Source: Sulfurovum sp. NBC37-1
Lineage (GTDB): Bacteria; Campylobacterota; Campylobacteria; Campylobacterales; Sulfurovaceae
DNA: 64,000 bases
NCBI RefSeq assembly: GCF_000010345.1
Contig: NC_009663.1
Location: 1,116,001-1,180,000, forward strand
Direction of reading: 5' to 3'
The notes below the pieces were generated by a model. It made no database searches. It was not told the DNA's origin and was given only the letters and a program-made list of their open reading frames with translations. The position numbers and the translations under genes are program-made. This document shows positions 1-22,994 of the stretch, piece after piece; the stretch's first letter is position 1; each line of letters opens with the position of its first letter.

Positions 1-394
1 ACTAGATAATGACGTGGGTGAGATGCGTCGTGTATTAAATGCATTTTTACAGTTTATTGAACAAGATACTTCAGATAGTTTGATCATTGCTGCCACAAAT
101 CACCCTAAATTACTTGATCACGCATTGTTCCGTAGATTTGATGATGTCTTATACTATGATTACCCAGAAGAAGAAGAGCGAAAGAATCTTATAGAAAATA
201 TCTTAGGCACCTTTAAAGCTATACGTTTTGAATGGAAAAGTGTATTGAAAAAGAGTGAAGGTTTGAGTCATGCCGAGATTGATCATGCATGTAGAGATGC
301 GATTAAGCATATTATTCTTTCAGATCAAACAAAAGTCAATGCCACCCTACTACTTCAGATGATAAAAGAGCGTAAGAAAAATCATCTATCTTAA
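1..394 (+). CDS. ietA: AAA ATPase, C-terminal part (IetA-like)
   Basis: Only the end of this gene is in the window; the frame is open to the left edge, so the first GTG seen inside it is not the real start. What remains is the second half of a classical AAA module: a sensor 1 stretch ending in AATN, an arginine-finger segment FRRFD, then the small alpha-helical lid (SHAEIDHACRDAI). Walker A and B lie off the edge. The stop is 12 bases before a subtilisin-like protease, and this ATPase/protease pair is the arrangement of IetAS, described as an Agrobacterium plasmid stability pair and later as an antiviral system (Gao_Iet). The name rests on that pairing; an unrelated AAA ATPase next to an S8 protease is possible but less likely. 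Confidence 0.75.
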   Translation, partial: LDNDVGEMRRVLNAFLQFIEQDTSDSLIIAATNHPKLLDHALFRRFDDVLYYDYPEEEERKNLIENILGTFKAIRFEWKSVLKKSEGLSHAEIDHACRDAIKHIILSDQTKVNATLLLQMIKERKKNHLS

Positions 395-406
395 ATAAGG
401 TTTTAT

Positions 407-2887
407 ATGCCAATTCAGCAGTATCCCCATATAAAGATTACTACAGTACCCGAAACAAAAAACTTTACCAGCACAAGTTCTGGTGGCGGATCACTTCGTA
501 TACCTGAACGTAATCGTGCAGAACACAGTCAAATGCTTAGAACTCAACTTAATAATGCATTGGAGGGTATTGAAAGGGAAGTAAATGATTATAACCTTTC
601 AGCCACTCGAAAAGGTATTTATTTGGAATTTAAAGGTGATGGAGAGAATGGGCTAATGAGTAAAAGCCTAGAACATATAGGGGCTAATATTCGTTTACTC
701 AATGTCCATACCAATCAAGCTGGCGAAGTGTCCTCTGCAACTGTGTTTGTACCAAATGAGAAGAAAGAATTTTTCTCAAATAAACTACGCCAATATACAG
801 AGGAAGATACGGATAGCGGACAACCAAAAAATAAAAAGCTAATTAATAGTGTTGTTGAGATTAGTCAAGCTTTGGTCGAGGACTTTTGGTGTGACCCTCT
901 TAATTTAATTCCTGGAGAAGAACCGAAGTGGTGTGAAGTTTGGATTAGAGTAGATGCCCCCGAACAAGATCTATCGTCATTTCAGAACTTACTAGAAGAA
1001 CATGATATACAGTCAACTTCTAATGTACTTCACTTCCCTGAAAGGGTTGTAAAAATTATATATGTTAATAATGAACAGTTGATATTGCTTTCACGATATT
1101 CTGATCATGTAGCTGAATATCGGTTAGCAAAAGAAAGTGCACTTTTCTGGACTGAAATGCCACCTAGAGAACAAACTGAATGGGTTAATGATTTAATTGC
1201 ACGTATTGAGACTAACCAAGATTCAGGTACTTCAGTGTGTATCTTGGATACTGGTATCAATAATGGTCATGATTTATTGTCCCCCGTTCTGGATACTTCT
1301 AATTGTCATGCAGTAGATGGAGTTTGGGGCACTAATGACCATGATGGACACGGAACAATGATGGCAGGTATCGCAACTTATGGTGATTTAGAAAGGTGTG
1401 CCACCACTACAGGATCTATTCTATTGAAGCATCAGATTGAATCAGTTAAGATTTTGCCTCCACCTCCAGAACAAAATGATCCTAGATTATGGGGAGCTGT
1501 AACCAGTCAAGGAGTTAGTTTAGCTGAAATTCAGGCACCTGACACAAAAAGAGTTATTTGTATGGCAATCACATCAAATGATACAAGAGACAGGGGGAGG
1601 CCATCCTCCTGGTCATCAACGGTGGATAGTCTGACTTCTGGTGCAGAAGATGGCATTCAAAGACTTATGATTGTTAGTGCAGGAAATACTGAGGTCACAG
1701 AATTTACCAATTCAGCCAACTACCCTGATGCGCTAATAACGGATTCAATACATGATCCAGCACAATCATGGAATGCTGTAACAGTTGGGGCTTATACCTC
1801 GTTACACAACATTACAGACCCAGCATTAGCAGGGTATACGCCTTTGGCACCGCATAATGCAATTTCACCATTTACTACAACATCTTCAGTATGGGAAGAT
1901 AAATGGCCGATAAAACCTGAAATAGTTATGGAAGGAGGAAATTTAGCAGTAGATAATACATTTGTAACTGAATGTGAAGACTTGTCTATGCTTACTACAA
2001 ACTTTGAGCCACATCGTGGTCATTTTACAGATTTTCGCATGACTAGTTTGGCTACAGCTCAAGCATGTTGGTTTGCTGCACAAATACAAGTAAAATATCC
2101 AGAATTTTGGCCAGAAACAATACGTGCTTTAATGATACATTCAGCAAAGTGGACAGATGAACTTACAGCTCAATTTAATGATACTAGCCTGACTGAGAAA
2201 CAGAATATAAAAAACTTACTTCGCATTTGTGGTTATGGTGTGCCTTCTCTAGAAAGAGCTTTGCATAGTGCATCTAATTCATTAACCCTTATAGCTGAAT
2301 CAGAGATTCAACCTTTTGTAAAAGAAGGGAATGCTTATAAAACAAAAGATATGCACTTCTATGAACTACCTTGGCCAAAAGATGTTTTACTAAACTTACC
2401 ACCTGATATAGAAGTAGAAATGCGTGTTACTCTTTCTTACTTTATTGAACCTGGACCAGGAGAAATTGGTGGAAAAGATAAATATCGTTATGCATCTCAC
2501 ATGCTTCGCTTTGAAATAAATTCTCCGGGAGAAACAGAAGAGGAATTAATTCAAAGAATCAATGTAGCTGAACGAGATGAAGACAATACCCATCCAGGCA
2601 CAACAAGTGCTTCGGATCATTGGGTGATTGGTTCACAGGCAAGAGATAAAGGATCCATCCATTCAGATATTTGGAAAGGAACTGCAGCTGAACTTGCAGA
2701 CTCAAATAAAATAGTGGTTTACCCTGGTATAGGATGGTGGAGAGAACGAAGAAATTTAAAAAAATTTAACAAGCAAACACGATATTCTTTAGTAGTTTCT
2801 ATTTCAACACCATCTGAAGAAGTAGATATTTACACACCTGTATTAGCTCAGATAGAAATTCCAGTTGGTATTGAAGTTACTTTTTGA
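407..2887 (+). CDS. ietS: Subtilisin-like S8 serine protease (IetS-like)
   Basis: An 826-residue peptidase S8 protein without a signal peptide, so probably cytoplasmic. The triad is visible: Asp281 in ILDTGIN, His315 in DGHGTMMAG, and Ser547 in MTSLATAQA, a diverged form of the usual GTSMAAP. Asn427 in SAGN is the likely oxyanion-hole residue. About 270 residues precede the catalytic domain and about 240 follow it; these extensions are typical of large subtilases paired with AAA ATPases. An AAGG sequence precedes the ATG, 12 bases after the upstream stop, so the two genes should be co-transcribed. In the known IetAS pair both genes are needed for protection; the trigger and substrates are unknown to me. 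Base use is AT-rich compared with the later housekeeping genes. Confidence 0.85.
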   Translation: MPIQQYPHIKITTVPETKNFTSTSSGGGSLRIPERNRAEHSQMLRTQLNNALEGIEREVNDYNLSATRKGIYLEFKGDGENGLMSKSLEHIGANIRLLNVHTNQAGEVSSATVFVPNEKKEFFSNKLRQYTEEDTDSGQPKNKKLINSVVEISQALVEDFWCDPLNLIPGEEPKWCEVWIRVDAPEQDLSSFQNLLEEHDIQSTSNVLHFPERVVKIIYVNNEQLILLSRYSDHVAEYRLAKESALFWTEMPPREQTEWVNDLIARIETNQDSGTSVCILDTGINNGHDLLSPVLDTSNCHAVDGVWGTNDHDGHGTMMAGIATYGDLERCATTTGSILLKHQIESVKILPPPPEQNDPRLWGAVTSQGVSLAEIQAPDTKRVICMAITSNDTRDRGRPSSWSSTVDSLTSGAEDGIQRLMIVSAGNTEVTEFTNSANYPDALITDSIHDPAQSWNAVTVGAYTSLHNITDPALAGYTPLAPHNAISPFTTTSSVWEDKWPIKPEIVMEGGNLAVDNTFVTECEDLSMLTTNFEPHRGHFTDFRMTSLATAQACWFAAQIQVKYPEFWPETIRALMIHSAKWTDELTAQFNDTSLTEKQNIKNLLRICGYGVPSLERALHSASNSLTLIAESEIQPFVKEGNAYKTKDMHFYELPWPKDVLLNLPPDIEVEMRVTLSYFIEPGPGEIGGKDKYRYASHMLRFEINSPGETEEELIQRINVAERDEDNTHPGTTSASDHWVIGSQARDKGSIHSDIWKGTAAELADSNKIVVYPGIGWWRERRNLKKFNKQTRYSLVVSISTPSEEVDIYTPVLAQIEIPVGIEVTF

Positions 2888-3060: not shown

Positions 3061-3244
3061 ATGGAAAGCAAGATCAACAGAATAGCCGACATCCTCCGCC
3101 GAGACGACGGCATCTCTGCTGCGGTGATGTGCATGGAACAGATATCGTGGATACTCTTTTTTAAGTTCATCAATGACTTAGAAATCAATAAAGCTGCAGA
3201 TGGAGAGCCTGAAGTTGGACAGGGCATTTAGAGGGGAGTTGTAG
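3061..3244 (+). pseudogene. hsdM 5' end fused to hsdS 3' end (type I R-M remnant)
   Basis: The first ~45 codons from ATG encode the N-terminal helix bundle of a type I restriction-modification methyltransferase (RIADILRRDDGI ... ISWILFFKFINDLE), ending shortly after the usual LFFKFLDDLE-type motif. Near 3195 the sequence changes to the last ~15 codons of a specificity subunit, in a different frame, ending LDRAFRGEL-stop (stop at 3242-3244), the hallmark C-terminus of HsdS. Most of hsdM and hsdS has therefore been deleted between. The hsdM frame itself stops at 3229-3231. The fusion cannot make a functional enzyme. The hsdS stop codon is part of the following REP element. Confidence 0.85.
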
Positions 3245-3340
3245 GGTGTGCAATTGCACACCGATGTGCACCGATTAAAATAAAAAATCACAAAATAAAT
3301 ATGGAAACATGGGTTGAAGGTGTGCAATTGCACACCCTTA
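3241..3340 (+). repeat. BIME 1: pair of inverted REP palindromes headed by GTAG
   Basis: GTAG is followed directly by the perfect 18-bp palindrome GGTGTGCAATTGCACACC, then an AT-rich spacer, then the same palindrome in inverted setting at 3319-3336, followed by CTTAC (a one-base variant of CTAC). A GTAG tetranucleotide next to an imperfect or perfect palindrome is the signature of REP sequences handled by RAYT transposases, and a RAYT gene lies 450 bases downstream. Here GTAG contains the stop codon of the hsdS remnant. Confidence 0.85.
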
Positions 3341-3650
3341 CGCGTATCGAATATTTGCGGTGATACAATGCAGCGATAAAATTCCAACCAATTGCACACC
3401 GATTAAAATAAAAACCACAAAATAAATATGGAAACATGGGTTGAAGGTGTGCAATTGCACACCCTACGCGTATCGAATATTTGCGGTGATACAATGCAGC
3501 GATAAAATTCCAACAAATTGCACACCGATTAAAATAAAAATCACCAATTAAATATGAAATCATTTATTGAAGGTGTGCTGTTGCACACCCTACGGGTATC
3601 AAAACATTTATGGTGATAAATGCACCGATCAAACCTCCAACCATATATAC
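3319..3650. repeat. Tandem ~127 bp REP-bearing repeat, 2 full units and a partial third
   Basis: Palindromes at 3319, 3446 and 3572 mark a period of 127 and 126 bases. Each unit contains palindrome + CTACGCG, a tail with CGAATATTTGCGGTG and GCAGCGATAAAATTCCAA, a half-palindrome TTGCACACC, then GATTAAAATAAAAA and a spacer ending TTGAA. The first two units are nearly identical; the third decays after about 70 bases. The same tail follows the inverted REPs at 4333 and 4601. Short open frames here are translations of the palindromes and not genes. Confidence 0.85.
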
Positions 3651-3683
3651 AAAAGACAATCATCCAACACATAAAACCAAACC

Positions 3684-3705
3684 GTAGGGTGTGCATTAGC
3701 ACACC
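3684..3705 (+). repeat. Single REP element with GTAG head
   Basis: GTAG followed by GGTGTGCATTAGCACACC, a variant of the local palindrome with a changed centre. It lies about 90 bases upstream of the RAYT start, so the transposase gene is flanked by GTAG-REPs on both sides. About 55 AT-rich bases between it and the gene hold no clear promoter. Confidence 0.8.
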
Positions 3706-3793
3706 AAAATTCCAAATAAATATAAAATCAACAATAATATGACAATATGACATATTTTTAAAATTGAATTATACGATACGATAAAATTATTTT

Positions 3794-4264
3794 ATGGCAA
3801 ATTATAGAAGAATATTTGAAGATGGTTATAGCTATTACATCACGATGGTGACACACAGACGCAAGCCTATACTTGTGGAAAATATAGCATTGTTACGAGA
3901 GAGCTTCAGGCAGAGCAAGAAGGTATTTGATTATCGTATAGAAGAAATCGTTGTGTTGCCTGACCATCTGCATATGATTATCACCCCTGCTGTGAGTGTG
4001 GAGTACCCTAAGATTATAGGGTATGTCAAGGCATATTTTTCCCGACATTGTGATGAAAAGTATTTTGCAGAGGAAACACAATCTTTCAGTAGATACCAAA
4101 GAAGACATAAACCCATTTGGCAAAAGAGGTATTATGAACACACCATACGAAATGAAAAAGATATGTGGGAGAAGATAAATTATATGCAAAATAATCCCGT
4201 GAAACATGGTTTGGCAGAAACCATAGAGGATTGGAAATATTCATCATTCCAAAAACCCGCGTAG
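3794..4264 (+). CDS. REP-associated tyrosine transposase (RAYT, Y1 family)
   Basis: A 156-residue IS200/IS605-like HUH protein of the single-copy RAYT (TnpA-REP) class. The metal-binding HxH is His58-Leu-His60 in LPDHLHMI; Tyr81 in the YVKAYFSR helix is the best candidate for the catalytic tyrosine; the C-terminus has the family signature NNPVKHGLAETIEDWKYSSF. Such proteins nick REP sequences at their GTAG-type heads and are thought to spread and maintain them. The gene is intact and surrounded by matching REPs, and its own stop codon (TAG, preceded by G) is the GTAG of the next REP. There is no strong ribosome binding site before the ATG. No terminal repeats of a classic insertion sequence are seen. 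Confidence 0.93.
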   Translation: MANYRRIFEDGYSYYITMVTHRRKPILVENIALLRESFRQSKKVFDYRIEEIVVLPDHLHMIITPAVSVEYPKIIGYVKAYFSRHCDEKYFAEETQSFSRYQRRHKPIWQKRYYEHTIRNEKDMWEKINYMQNNPVKHGLAETIEDWKYSSFQKPA

Positions 4265-4354
4265 GGTGTGTGCAATCGCACACCGATTAAAATATAAAAT
4301 TACCAATTAAATATAAAATCTAATGTGTGGAAGGTGTGCAATTGCACACCCTAC
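4261..4354 (+). repeat. BIME 2: REP pair starting at the RAYT stop codon
   Basis: GTAG, then a 20-base variant palindrome GGTGTGTGCAATCGCACACC, an AT-rich spacer with the shared GATTAAAAT start and GTGTGGAA end, then inverted GGTGTGCAATTGCACACC at 4333-4350 and CTAC. TAG of the head is the transposase stop. The shared tail (GCAGCGATAAAATCCAA) continues to about 4397 and abuts the hsdS remnant. Confidence 0.85.
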
Positions 4355-4403
4355 GGGTACCGAATATGTATGGTGGTGCAATGCAGCGATAAAATCCAAG
4401 TAA

Positions 4404-4535
4404 AAAACCGTCAAATACCTAGATCAACTCTCAGAAAAAACAGAAAAAGTAAAATCAGTTCAAAAAGAGAAGATGCAGAGCTTGAAAGCGTTGAAGGCTT
4501 CCCTTTTGGACAGGGCTTTTAGAGGGGAGTTGTAG
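4404..4535 (+). pseudogene. hsdS 3' end remnant (type I R-M specificity subunit)
   Basis: Reading back from the TAG at 4533-4535 gives about 43 codons with no start: a conserved-region helix (VKYLDQLSEKTEKVKSVQ) followed by KEKMQSLKALKASLLDRAFRGEL, the standard HsdS C-terminal coiled coil and ending. A stop codon at 4401-4403 closes the frame upstream, and the REP tail begins there. This frame differs from the longer open frame in the same place. It is a second copy of the 3' end seen at 3200-3244, here with six more residues before LDRAF, so the two are not a very recent exact duplication. No target recognition domain is left. Confidence 0.85.
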
Positions 4536-4622
4536 GGTGTGTAATTGCACACCGATTAAAATAAAAACTACCAAATAAATATGAAATCTCATGTGTGGAA
4601 GGTGTGCTGTTGCACACCCTAC
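4532..4622 (+). repeat. BIME 3: REP pair starting at the second hsdS stop codon
   Basis: GTAG (with TAG the hsdS stop), palindrome GGTGTGTAATTGCACACC, the shared AT-rich spacer, then inverted GGTGTGCTGTTGCACACC at 4601-4618 and CTAC. Its tail (CGAATATTTGAGG) fades out near 4640. This is the last element of the array; the island ends about here. Confidence 0.85.
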
Positions 4623-21868: not shown

Positions 21869-21948
21869 GGAGCCGTCTCCTGACGGCACCACTAAATTTA
21901 TTGTATCTTATATATCGGAAATGGTGCTATGAGGACACAGCACCCTAC
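21869..21948 (-). repeat. REP-like palindrome pair at the lpxB stop codon
   Basis: On the minus strand, GTAG (21948-21945) is followed by GGTGCT, a 10-base loop and AGCACC (21944-21923); the TAG is the lpxB stop codon. On the other side is GGAGCCGTC-TCCT-GACGGCACC (21869-21890) preceded by GTAA on the plus strand, so the two face each other like a BIME. The stem differs from the GGTGTG type near the RAYT, but the GTAG-GGTG...CACC frame is shared. Confidence 0.65.
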
Positions 21949-22994
21949 GGTTGCATAATAATTCTTGCAACGTTTGCTGAGCTTCCGTGCCCAAGATATT
22001 CCCTGAGCTCTTTTGCCTTGGCAGTGAATTTTTTTCGGTCGGTATTGTAGTATTCTTTGAGCAGGTTGTCAACCGTGACCTCTTCCTGCAGCAGTTCTTT
22101 GTGTAGGGTTGTACCGTTGTAATGTGAGAGGATGATATTTGCCAGGCCTATCTGGGTGATACCCAAAATTTTGAAAGCAACGAAATAGTCGATCTTCTTG
22201 GCAATGTAGGTAAGGGTGAACGGTGTACCTATGAGTGCTGCTTCAAGTGTAGCAGTACCCGAACAGATGAAAGCAAACTCCGAACGTCTGAGGGCATCGT
22301 GCGTGTCTCTTATGATCTCGAATGCATCACTCCCCTCGTAAAGTTCTGCGATTTTTTTGTCGCTGAAAGAGGGTGGGATGACGAGTAGCGGCCTGATCTC
22401 GCTTCCCAGCTTTTGTCTGAGCTCCAGAAAAATGGGCATCAGCCGGCTGATCTCCGCTTTCCGGCTTCCGGGCATAAAGGCAATGTACCCTTTTGCTCTT
22501 TCCCCATCGTGCTCTATATCGATCTCATCGAGCAGTGGATGACCGACATACTGTGCCTTGCCGCTCTTGTAGTAGTCTATTTCAAAGGGGAGAATGCCAA
22601 GCAGGTGATCACAATACTTTTCAAGTTTTGCCACACGTTTGGGACGGCTTGCCCATACCTGTGGGAGGATATAGTAGATGATCTCTTTGTCCGGATAAGT
22701 GGTTTTAAGCTTTTTTGCCAAAGGAAGGTTGAATCCCGAACCATCCATCAGCAGCACTTTATCAGCATCTTTGGCAAGTGCTACCATTTCATCGGCCACT
22801 TTAAAGAACCATCGCAGTTTTTTGACGGCATCCACCACACCCATGATCGCCATCTGTGAGATGTCGTACAGAGGTGTACCGTTCTCTATGCTTTTGTCAA
22901 AGATACCCATGAGTTCTATATCGCGGGTATGCTTGAGTACCTCTTTCAGATGCAGGTTGGATGATGGCTCAAGGGCGGATACAAGTAGTTTCAC
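21945..22994 (-). CDS. lpxB: Lipid-A-disaccharide synthase LpxB
   Basis: A 349-residue GT19 glycosyltransferase that joins UDP-2,3-diacylglucosamine to lipid X in lipid A synthesis. Typical segments are LVSALEPSSNLHL near the start, IIYYILPQVWASRPKRV, the FMPGSRKAEI motif, and ICSGTATLEAALIGTPFTLTY near the donor site. The start is GTG. Its stop codon TAG is the head of a REP-like palindrome. It is unlinked from lpxA here by the queH and fabZ genes only. Confidence 0.96.
   Translation of the reverse strand: MKLLVSALEPSSNLHLKEVLKHTRDIELMGIFDKSIENGTPLYDISQMAIMGVVDAVKKLRWFFKVADEMVALAKDADKVLLMDGSGFNLPLAKKLKTTYPDKEIIYYILPQVWASRPKRVAKLEKYCDHLLGILPFEIDYYKSGKAQYVGHPLLDEIDIEHDGERAKGYIAFMPGSRKAEISRLMPIFLELRQKLGSEIRPLLVIPPSFSDKKIAELYEGSDAFEIIRDTHDALRRSEFAFICSGTATLEAALIGTPFTLTYIAKKIDYFVAFKILGITQIGLANIILSHYNGTTLHKELLQEEVTVDNLLKEYYNTDRKKFTAKAKELREYLGHGSSANVARIIMQP

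Follow-up and report, generated by a model that had tools for sequence, protein, structure and literature searches.

In the deep-sea bacterium Sulfurovum sp. NBC37-1, the GTAG heads of REPs coincide with stop codons far more often than with the positions just downstream, a pyrimidine precedes most of them, and in about half of the genes that end on such a head the ancestral end of the gene is kept. Gene ends with the same pyrimidine-GTAG sequence (YGTAG) occur with no REP in several relatives, and different REP families occupy one and the same stop in different species. Comparison of these sequences suggests that REPs often land on an existing stop and only sometimes create a slightly earlier one. 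That YGTAG is the site at which the element joins the chromosome, with native NYG-TAG stops as ordinary targets and a minority of stops made by the element, has in our judgement about an even chance of being correct.

The stop-codon observation is already known in kind, since the survey of Di Nocera, De Gregorio and Rocco (2013, PMC3733652) and other REP-RAYT papers preceded it; according to that survey, which listed Sulfurovum NBC37-1, GTAG-REP termini often provide flanking ORFs with a TAG stop. A quantification, the YGTAG context and a comparison with REP-free relatives were not found in the available portions of the REP papers cited here.

REP heads and stop codons in the window

The window, a stretch of 64,000 nucleotides, contains nine GTAG-REP heads on its two strands, a head being an unpaired GTAG with a short palindrome immediately 3′ of it. 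Those on the plus strand lie at 3241, 3684, 4261 and 4532, and those on the minus strand at 3467, 3593, 4354, 4622 and 21948. The features referred to below are, in window coordinates:

3061 to 3182, plus strand: hsdM remnant, N-terminus only, which continues into an hsdS 3′ tail; Pfam HsdM_N, PADLOC
3215 to 3244, plus strand: hsdS 3′ tail 1, LDRAFRGEL and stop; the TAG is a REP head
3241 to 3262, plus strand: GTAG-REP (GTAGGGTGTGCAATTGCACACC) on the stop of hsdS tail 1
3446 to 3467, minus strand: GTAG-REP off any stop
3572 to 3593, minus strand: GTAG-REP off any stop
3684 to 3705, plus strand: GTAG-REP 5′ of the RAYT gene, off any stop
3794 to 4264, plus strand: RAYT gene (Y1 transposase); a REP head makes its stop, GCG TAG
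4261 to 4284, plus strand: GTAG-REP on the RAYT stop
4333 to 4354, minus strand: GTAG-REP, reverse partner
4473 to 4535, plus strand: hsdS 3′ tail 2, MQSLKALKASLLDRAFRGEL and stop; the TAG is a REP head; copy of tail 1
4532 to 4553, plus strand: GTAG-REP on the stop of hsdS tail 2
4601 to 4622, minus strand: GTAG-REP, reverse partner
21923 to 21948, minus strand: GTAG-REP of another family (GTAGGGTGCTGTGTCCTCATAGCACC) on the lpxB stop
21945 to 22994, minus strand: lpxB; a REP head makes its terminal CCG TAG

The in-frame stops that lie inside a GTAG are TTG TAG at 3239-3244 and 4530-4535 (the hsdS tails), GCG TAG at 4259-4264 on the plus strand (the RAYT gene, head 4261-4264) and CCG TAG at 21950-21945 on the minus strand (lpxB, head 21948-21945); a GGTG...CACC hairpin follows directly 3′ of GTAG at all four. 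The original prediction, that GTAG forms the stop of both hsdS remnants, the RAYT gene and lpxB in the same frame, is thus borne out by the sequence. It had also counted five GTAG-REPs with only one away from a gene end; in fact, five of the nine heads lie off stops, namely 3684 and the four reverse heads 3467, 3593, 4354 and 4622. Nor can the four stops be treated as four independent genes: both hsdS tails end in LDRAFRGEL and are copies of one 51-nt segment (family D6, 96% identity) and therefore count as one event, and the RAYT junction is part of a REP-RAYT unit.

The RAYT gene scores 42.3 bits against Pfam Y1_Tnp (cut-off 23) and has homologues in relatives; its translation holds HLH and a tyrosine in NYMQNNP, whose functions are presumed from family membership. 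REPs at 3684, 4261 and 4354 flank this Y1 transposase gene in inverted orientation, the arrangement of a REP-RAYT unit, and a REP head serves as the RAYT stop in NBC37-1 and in at least seven other species with different REP sequences, eight or more in all. Just upstream of the window (genome 1114150-1115150) lies a second REP cluster with a broken copy of the RAYT unit, in which the first 24 RAYT codons, 88% identical, end abruptly and give way to other coding sequence.

The REP cluster and the RAYT gene sit between the two hsdS tails; tail 1 ends where HsdS homologues from other genera do. The hsdM remnant scores 24.3 bits against Pfam HsdM_N, slightly below the cut-off of 24.5, and matches PADLOC MTase_I with E 4.7e-10. 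These type I restriction remnants adjoin a subtilase gene that is preceded by the end of an AAA ATPase gene (window 14-2887), with IetA (E 4.6e-33) and IetS (E 4e-48) as best PADLOC matches; by PADLOC, the two are an IetAS-type anti-phage defence pair.

Genome-wide counts and the base before GTAG

The genome is a single contig of 2,562,277 bases, in which GTAGGGTG occurs 209 times (109 + 100), compared with 38 times (18 + 20) for the reversed pattern. Heads and stops were analysed over 1.664 Mb (65%), where a home-made hexamer gene caller, which misses genes of unusual codon use, called 1486 genes. This part holds 133 heads with a hairpin: 22 on the stops of called genes, 107 intergenic and 4 in coding sequence; 129 of the 133 are thus in non-coding DNA, dispersed and in high copy number. 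The four inside called coding sequence are at genome positions 155100, 800761, 981361 and 2290806. GTAGs with no GGTG after them number 103 at stops, 1174 in intergenic and 7716 in coding sequence. Compared with other non-coding GTAGs, REP heads are more often at stops (odds ratio 2.3, Fisher p=0.0017), and the coincidence is above chance (22 of 133). The heads peak at exact overlap with the stop, where 22 of them lie, against 16 over the six next downstream positions together (about 2.7 per position; p about 5e-10 under a model of equal numbers per position), and a spike at one position implies that GTAG itself must matter. With the cases missed by the gene caller, two RAYT genes (the window copy and 2370513-2370986, the second placed by coordinate arithmetic) and the two hsdS tails, the total of REPs on stops is 26.

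C or T precedes GTAG at 103 of 107 intergenic heads and 19 of 22 stop heads, together 122 of 129 in non-coding DNA. For GTAGs free of REPs the figure is 49% in intergenic sequence and 46% at stops. The base occupies the second position of the final codon, which is why most REP-ended proteins have A, L, T, P, M or V as their last residue. Native ends of the form NNG TAG belong to about 7% of genes. REPs fill 19 of the 66 Y-GTAG sites at stops, 15 of the 27 at 1-6 nt downstream and 15 of the 62 at 7-30 nt downstream; as the last are filled about as often as the stops, a stop-specific preference is unneeded. The 16 heads at +1 to +6 after stops exceed the prediction from the other 24 GTAGs there (p=0.005), which weighs against YGTAG as the join site.

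Gene ends in relatives and turnover of REPs

The C-terminal pieces of the 22 REP-ended genes were used as queries against six genomes of the genus, and those of a subset also against three further genomes; 22 genes with a REP-free GTAG and 22 with other stops, all longer, well-scoring genes, served as controls in two of those genomes. The relatives are about 80-90% identical at best, and the closest genome pair has about 90% nucleotide identity. Shares were weighted by gene and drawn from the lpxB set and the six genomes searched first, with eroded REPs judged by eye and left out and with orthologues that are not independent of one another. A share of 0.44 (95% CI 0.27-0.62) of the REP-free orthologues stops at the identical residue for REP-ended genes, against 0.75 and 0.77 for the controls. 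By our own estimate, pure truncation would leave about 11% of ends unchanged (one in nine) and a pure target about three in four. Compared with the controls, REP-ended genes keep their ends unchanged significantly less often (permutation p=0.006), so some of the heads did create stops, and we read the REP-ended genes as a probable mixture of ancestral and newly made stops. The share of GTAG in REP-free orthologues is 0.22 for REP-ended genes, 0.125 for native-GTAG controls and 0 for other-stop controls (REP-ended against other-stop, permutation p=0.008).

Individual genes fall on both sides. With no REP present, TsaD ends CTG TAG in two relatives (G015, G016) and TTG TAG in a third (G019), the 361117 gene (a 173-aa membrane protein) ends TTG TAG in G016 and RecQ ends GTG TAG in G015. 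YajQ has its TAG after an unchanged lysine in four relatives, G014, G015, G016 and G009. Since relatives already stop there, the stop belonged to these genes. A REP-free YGTAG end is also seen for 1994330 in G016. Two reverse cases are 1747630 (GCG TAG) and 2227441 (TCG TAG), REP-free on the stop in NBC37-1 and with a REP there in G015. In lpxB, GltX, 111012 and hsdS, which are not clear cases either way, the end lies at the same residue in REP-free relatives, but the stop codon there is mostly TAA or TGA, and GTAG is not seen before the REP. A pre-existing target is supported at TsaD, 361117, RecQ, 1747630 and 2227441, but not at lpxB, 111012 or hsdS. A different pattern is given by the TrmH-like 1618257 (relatives mostly 3 or 4 codons longer), the DadA-like 1754820 (6 and 7) and 1919328 (6 and more); as relatives run 2-7 codons further, the head probably created an earlier stop in this minority, possibly including TlyA. 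The original prediction that the REP head supplies the stop codon probably applies to this minority and fails for TsaD, 361117, RecQ and YajQ; the result that was to count against it, REP-free homologues ending at the same TAG, came out for only part of the genes.

The REPs at orthologous stops differ between species. Different hairpins stand on the GltX stop in NBC37-1, G015, G020 and G012, on the 636891 stop in NBC37-1, G013, G014, G015 and G022, and on the LpxB stop in NBC37-1, G014, G010 and G013; REPs are eroded at LpxB in G015 and G016, with a REP or eroded REP in five relatives overall, and at TlyA in G015. Between G013 and G022, which are about 90% identical at lpxB, some junctions are clean and many left or right borders differ by small indels; at lpxB, TCATAA stands in place of CCGTAG-REP, and the right-hand flank is common to these two genomes where their REPs are different. 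By strict hairpin calls, the sharing of REPs at orthologous stops does not exceed that in controls significantly (15/128 versus 3/59, p=0.19), and conserved REP positions are therefore not claimed.

In E. coli K-12 (NC_000913.3, 2317027-2317030), the TAG stop of rcsC falls on the GTAG of a REP head, and no other stop of this kind was seen in the four 50-kb stretches read. The shorter E. coli versions seen at rcsC have one unit (about 114 bp) less. The repeat unit at pgi-yjbE is absent in about a third of E. coli genomes, the indel being larger than the REP pair with its ends off GTAG; no clean empty site at a stop was found among E. coli strains at pgi-yjbE or rcsC.

Possible origins of the junction and known systems

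IS200/IS605 elements such as IS608 and ISDra2 insert 3′ of a short sequence, which becomes their left flank. In a like manner, GTAG-type REPs, single or paired as REPINs and presumably moved by RAYT transposases like that of the window, would join the chromosome directly 3′ of pyrimidine-GTAG. As about 7% of genes end in NNG TAG, such stops would be among the few target sites that cost nothing, which would be why REPs stand flush against stops and always in the same frame. Where a case can be resolved, the stop would mostly stand at the gene's own position; in a minority, a head a few codons upstream of the relatives' stop would have supplied an earlier one. We infer YGTAG as the target and RAYT as the joining enzyme. 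The more specific proposal, that YGTAG is an insertion target and that harmless NYG-TAG stops are hit repeatedly by the active REP family of the lineage, we rate a little short of an even chance.

Under the model of the original prediction, the element brings its own 5′ GTAG, joins after almost any pyrimidine, and is kept by selection where a nearly harmless in-frame stop results. GTAG is indeed described in PMC8266576 as a guide sequence that the REP carries, while cleavage in other REP-RAYT systems takes place at CT or CA, outside GTAG, and this element-borne guide counts against YGTAG as the target. The lpxB comparison of G013 with G022 points the same way, as does the finding that relatives are longer by at least two residues in 27% for REP-ended genes against about 11% for controls. 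However, such a model predicts a broad spread of ends, whereas the ancestral end survives in about half of the genes, and out-of-frame read-through about twice as frequent as stops, whereas only 4 of 133 heads lie in coding sequence; the REP-free YGTAG in TsaD, RecQ, 361117 and the two reverse cases is left unaccounted for. We regard it as rather unlikely.

Alternatively, these may be old REP sites at which the active family swaps the hairpin in place by exchange between GTAG heads, which would make GTAG stops the fossils of ancient insertions even where the REP has since gone. Different families on the same stops across species, the eroded REPs at orthologous stops (lpxB, TlyA) and the common right-hand flank of G013 and G022 agree with such an exchange, but the spacers between paired REPs vary among species, TsaD has no visible REP remnant in three relatives and the excess of cross-species sharing is not significant; we consider it improbable. 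The absence of any mechanistic meaning, with REPs gathering in 3′ regions and some falling on stops by chance, would fit the similar Y-GTAG occupancy at stops and 7-30 nt downstream but not the spike at one position, and appears very improbable. The fixed frame at stops offers a natural record of the REP join site, alongside in vitro demonstrations of cleavage and sequencing reads that show excision. With YGTAG as the target, the hugging of gene ends by REPs would be explained without special selection, as would the final residues of REP-ended proteins (A, P, T, V, L and M, with C or T in the middle of the codon).

The GTAG-tagged REPs of PMC3733652 resemble those described here in their GTAG head, short stem, many copies, pairs and location at gene ends; the accessible text of that survey differs in being without stop counts against chance, REP-free relatives or an account of the cause. 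In REP-RAYT units or REPtrons elsewhere (PMC2817692, PMC3116915, PMC8266576), cognate REPs likewise flank the RAYT gene, with one at or near the rayt stop: REPs are placed immediately downstream of rayt stops by Nunvar (2010, PMC2817692), and excised doublets, with a left end beginning at an invariant sequence, are reported by Bertels and Rainey (2011, PMC3116915). Here, in contrast, the head itself is the RAYT stop in several species, with C or T before GTAG; the rules for guide, cleavage and excision come from species other than Sulfurovum. IS200/IS605 elements (IS608, ISDra2) are alike in their related single-strand Y1 transposases, and their cleavage sites are picked by guide pairing (PMC8266576); unlike in those elements, no autonomous element with ends of its own was seen here, and we infer the use of a target.
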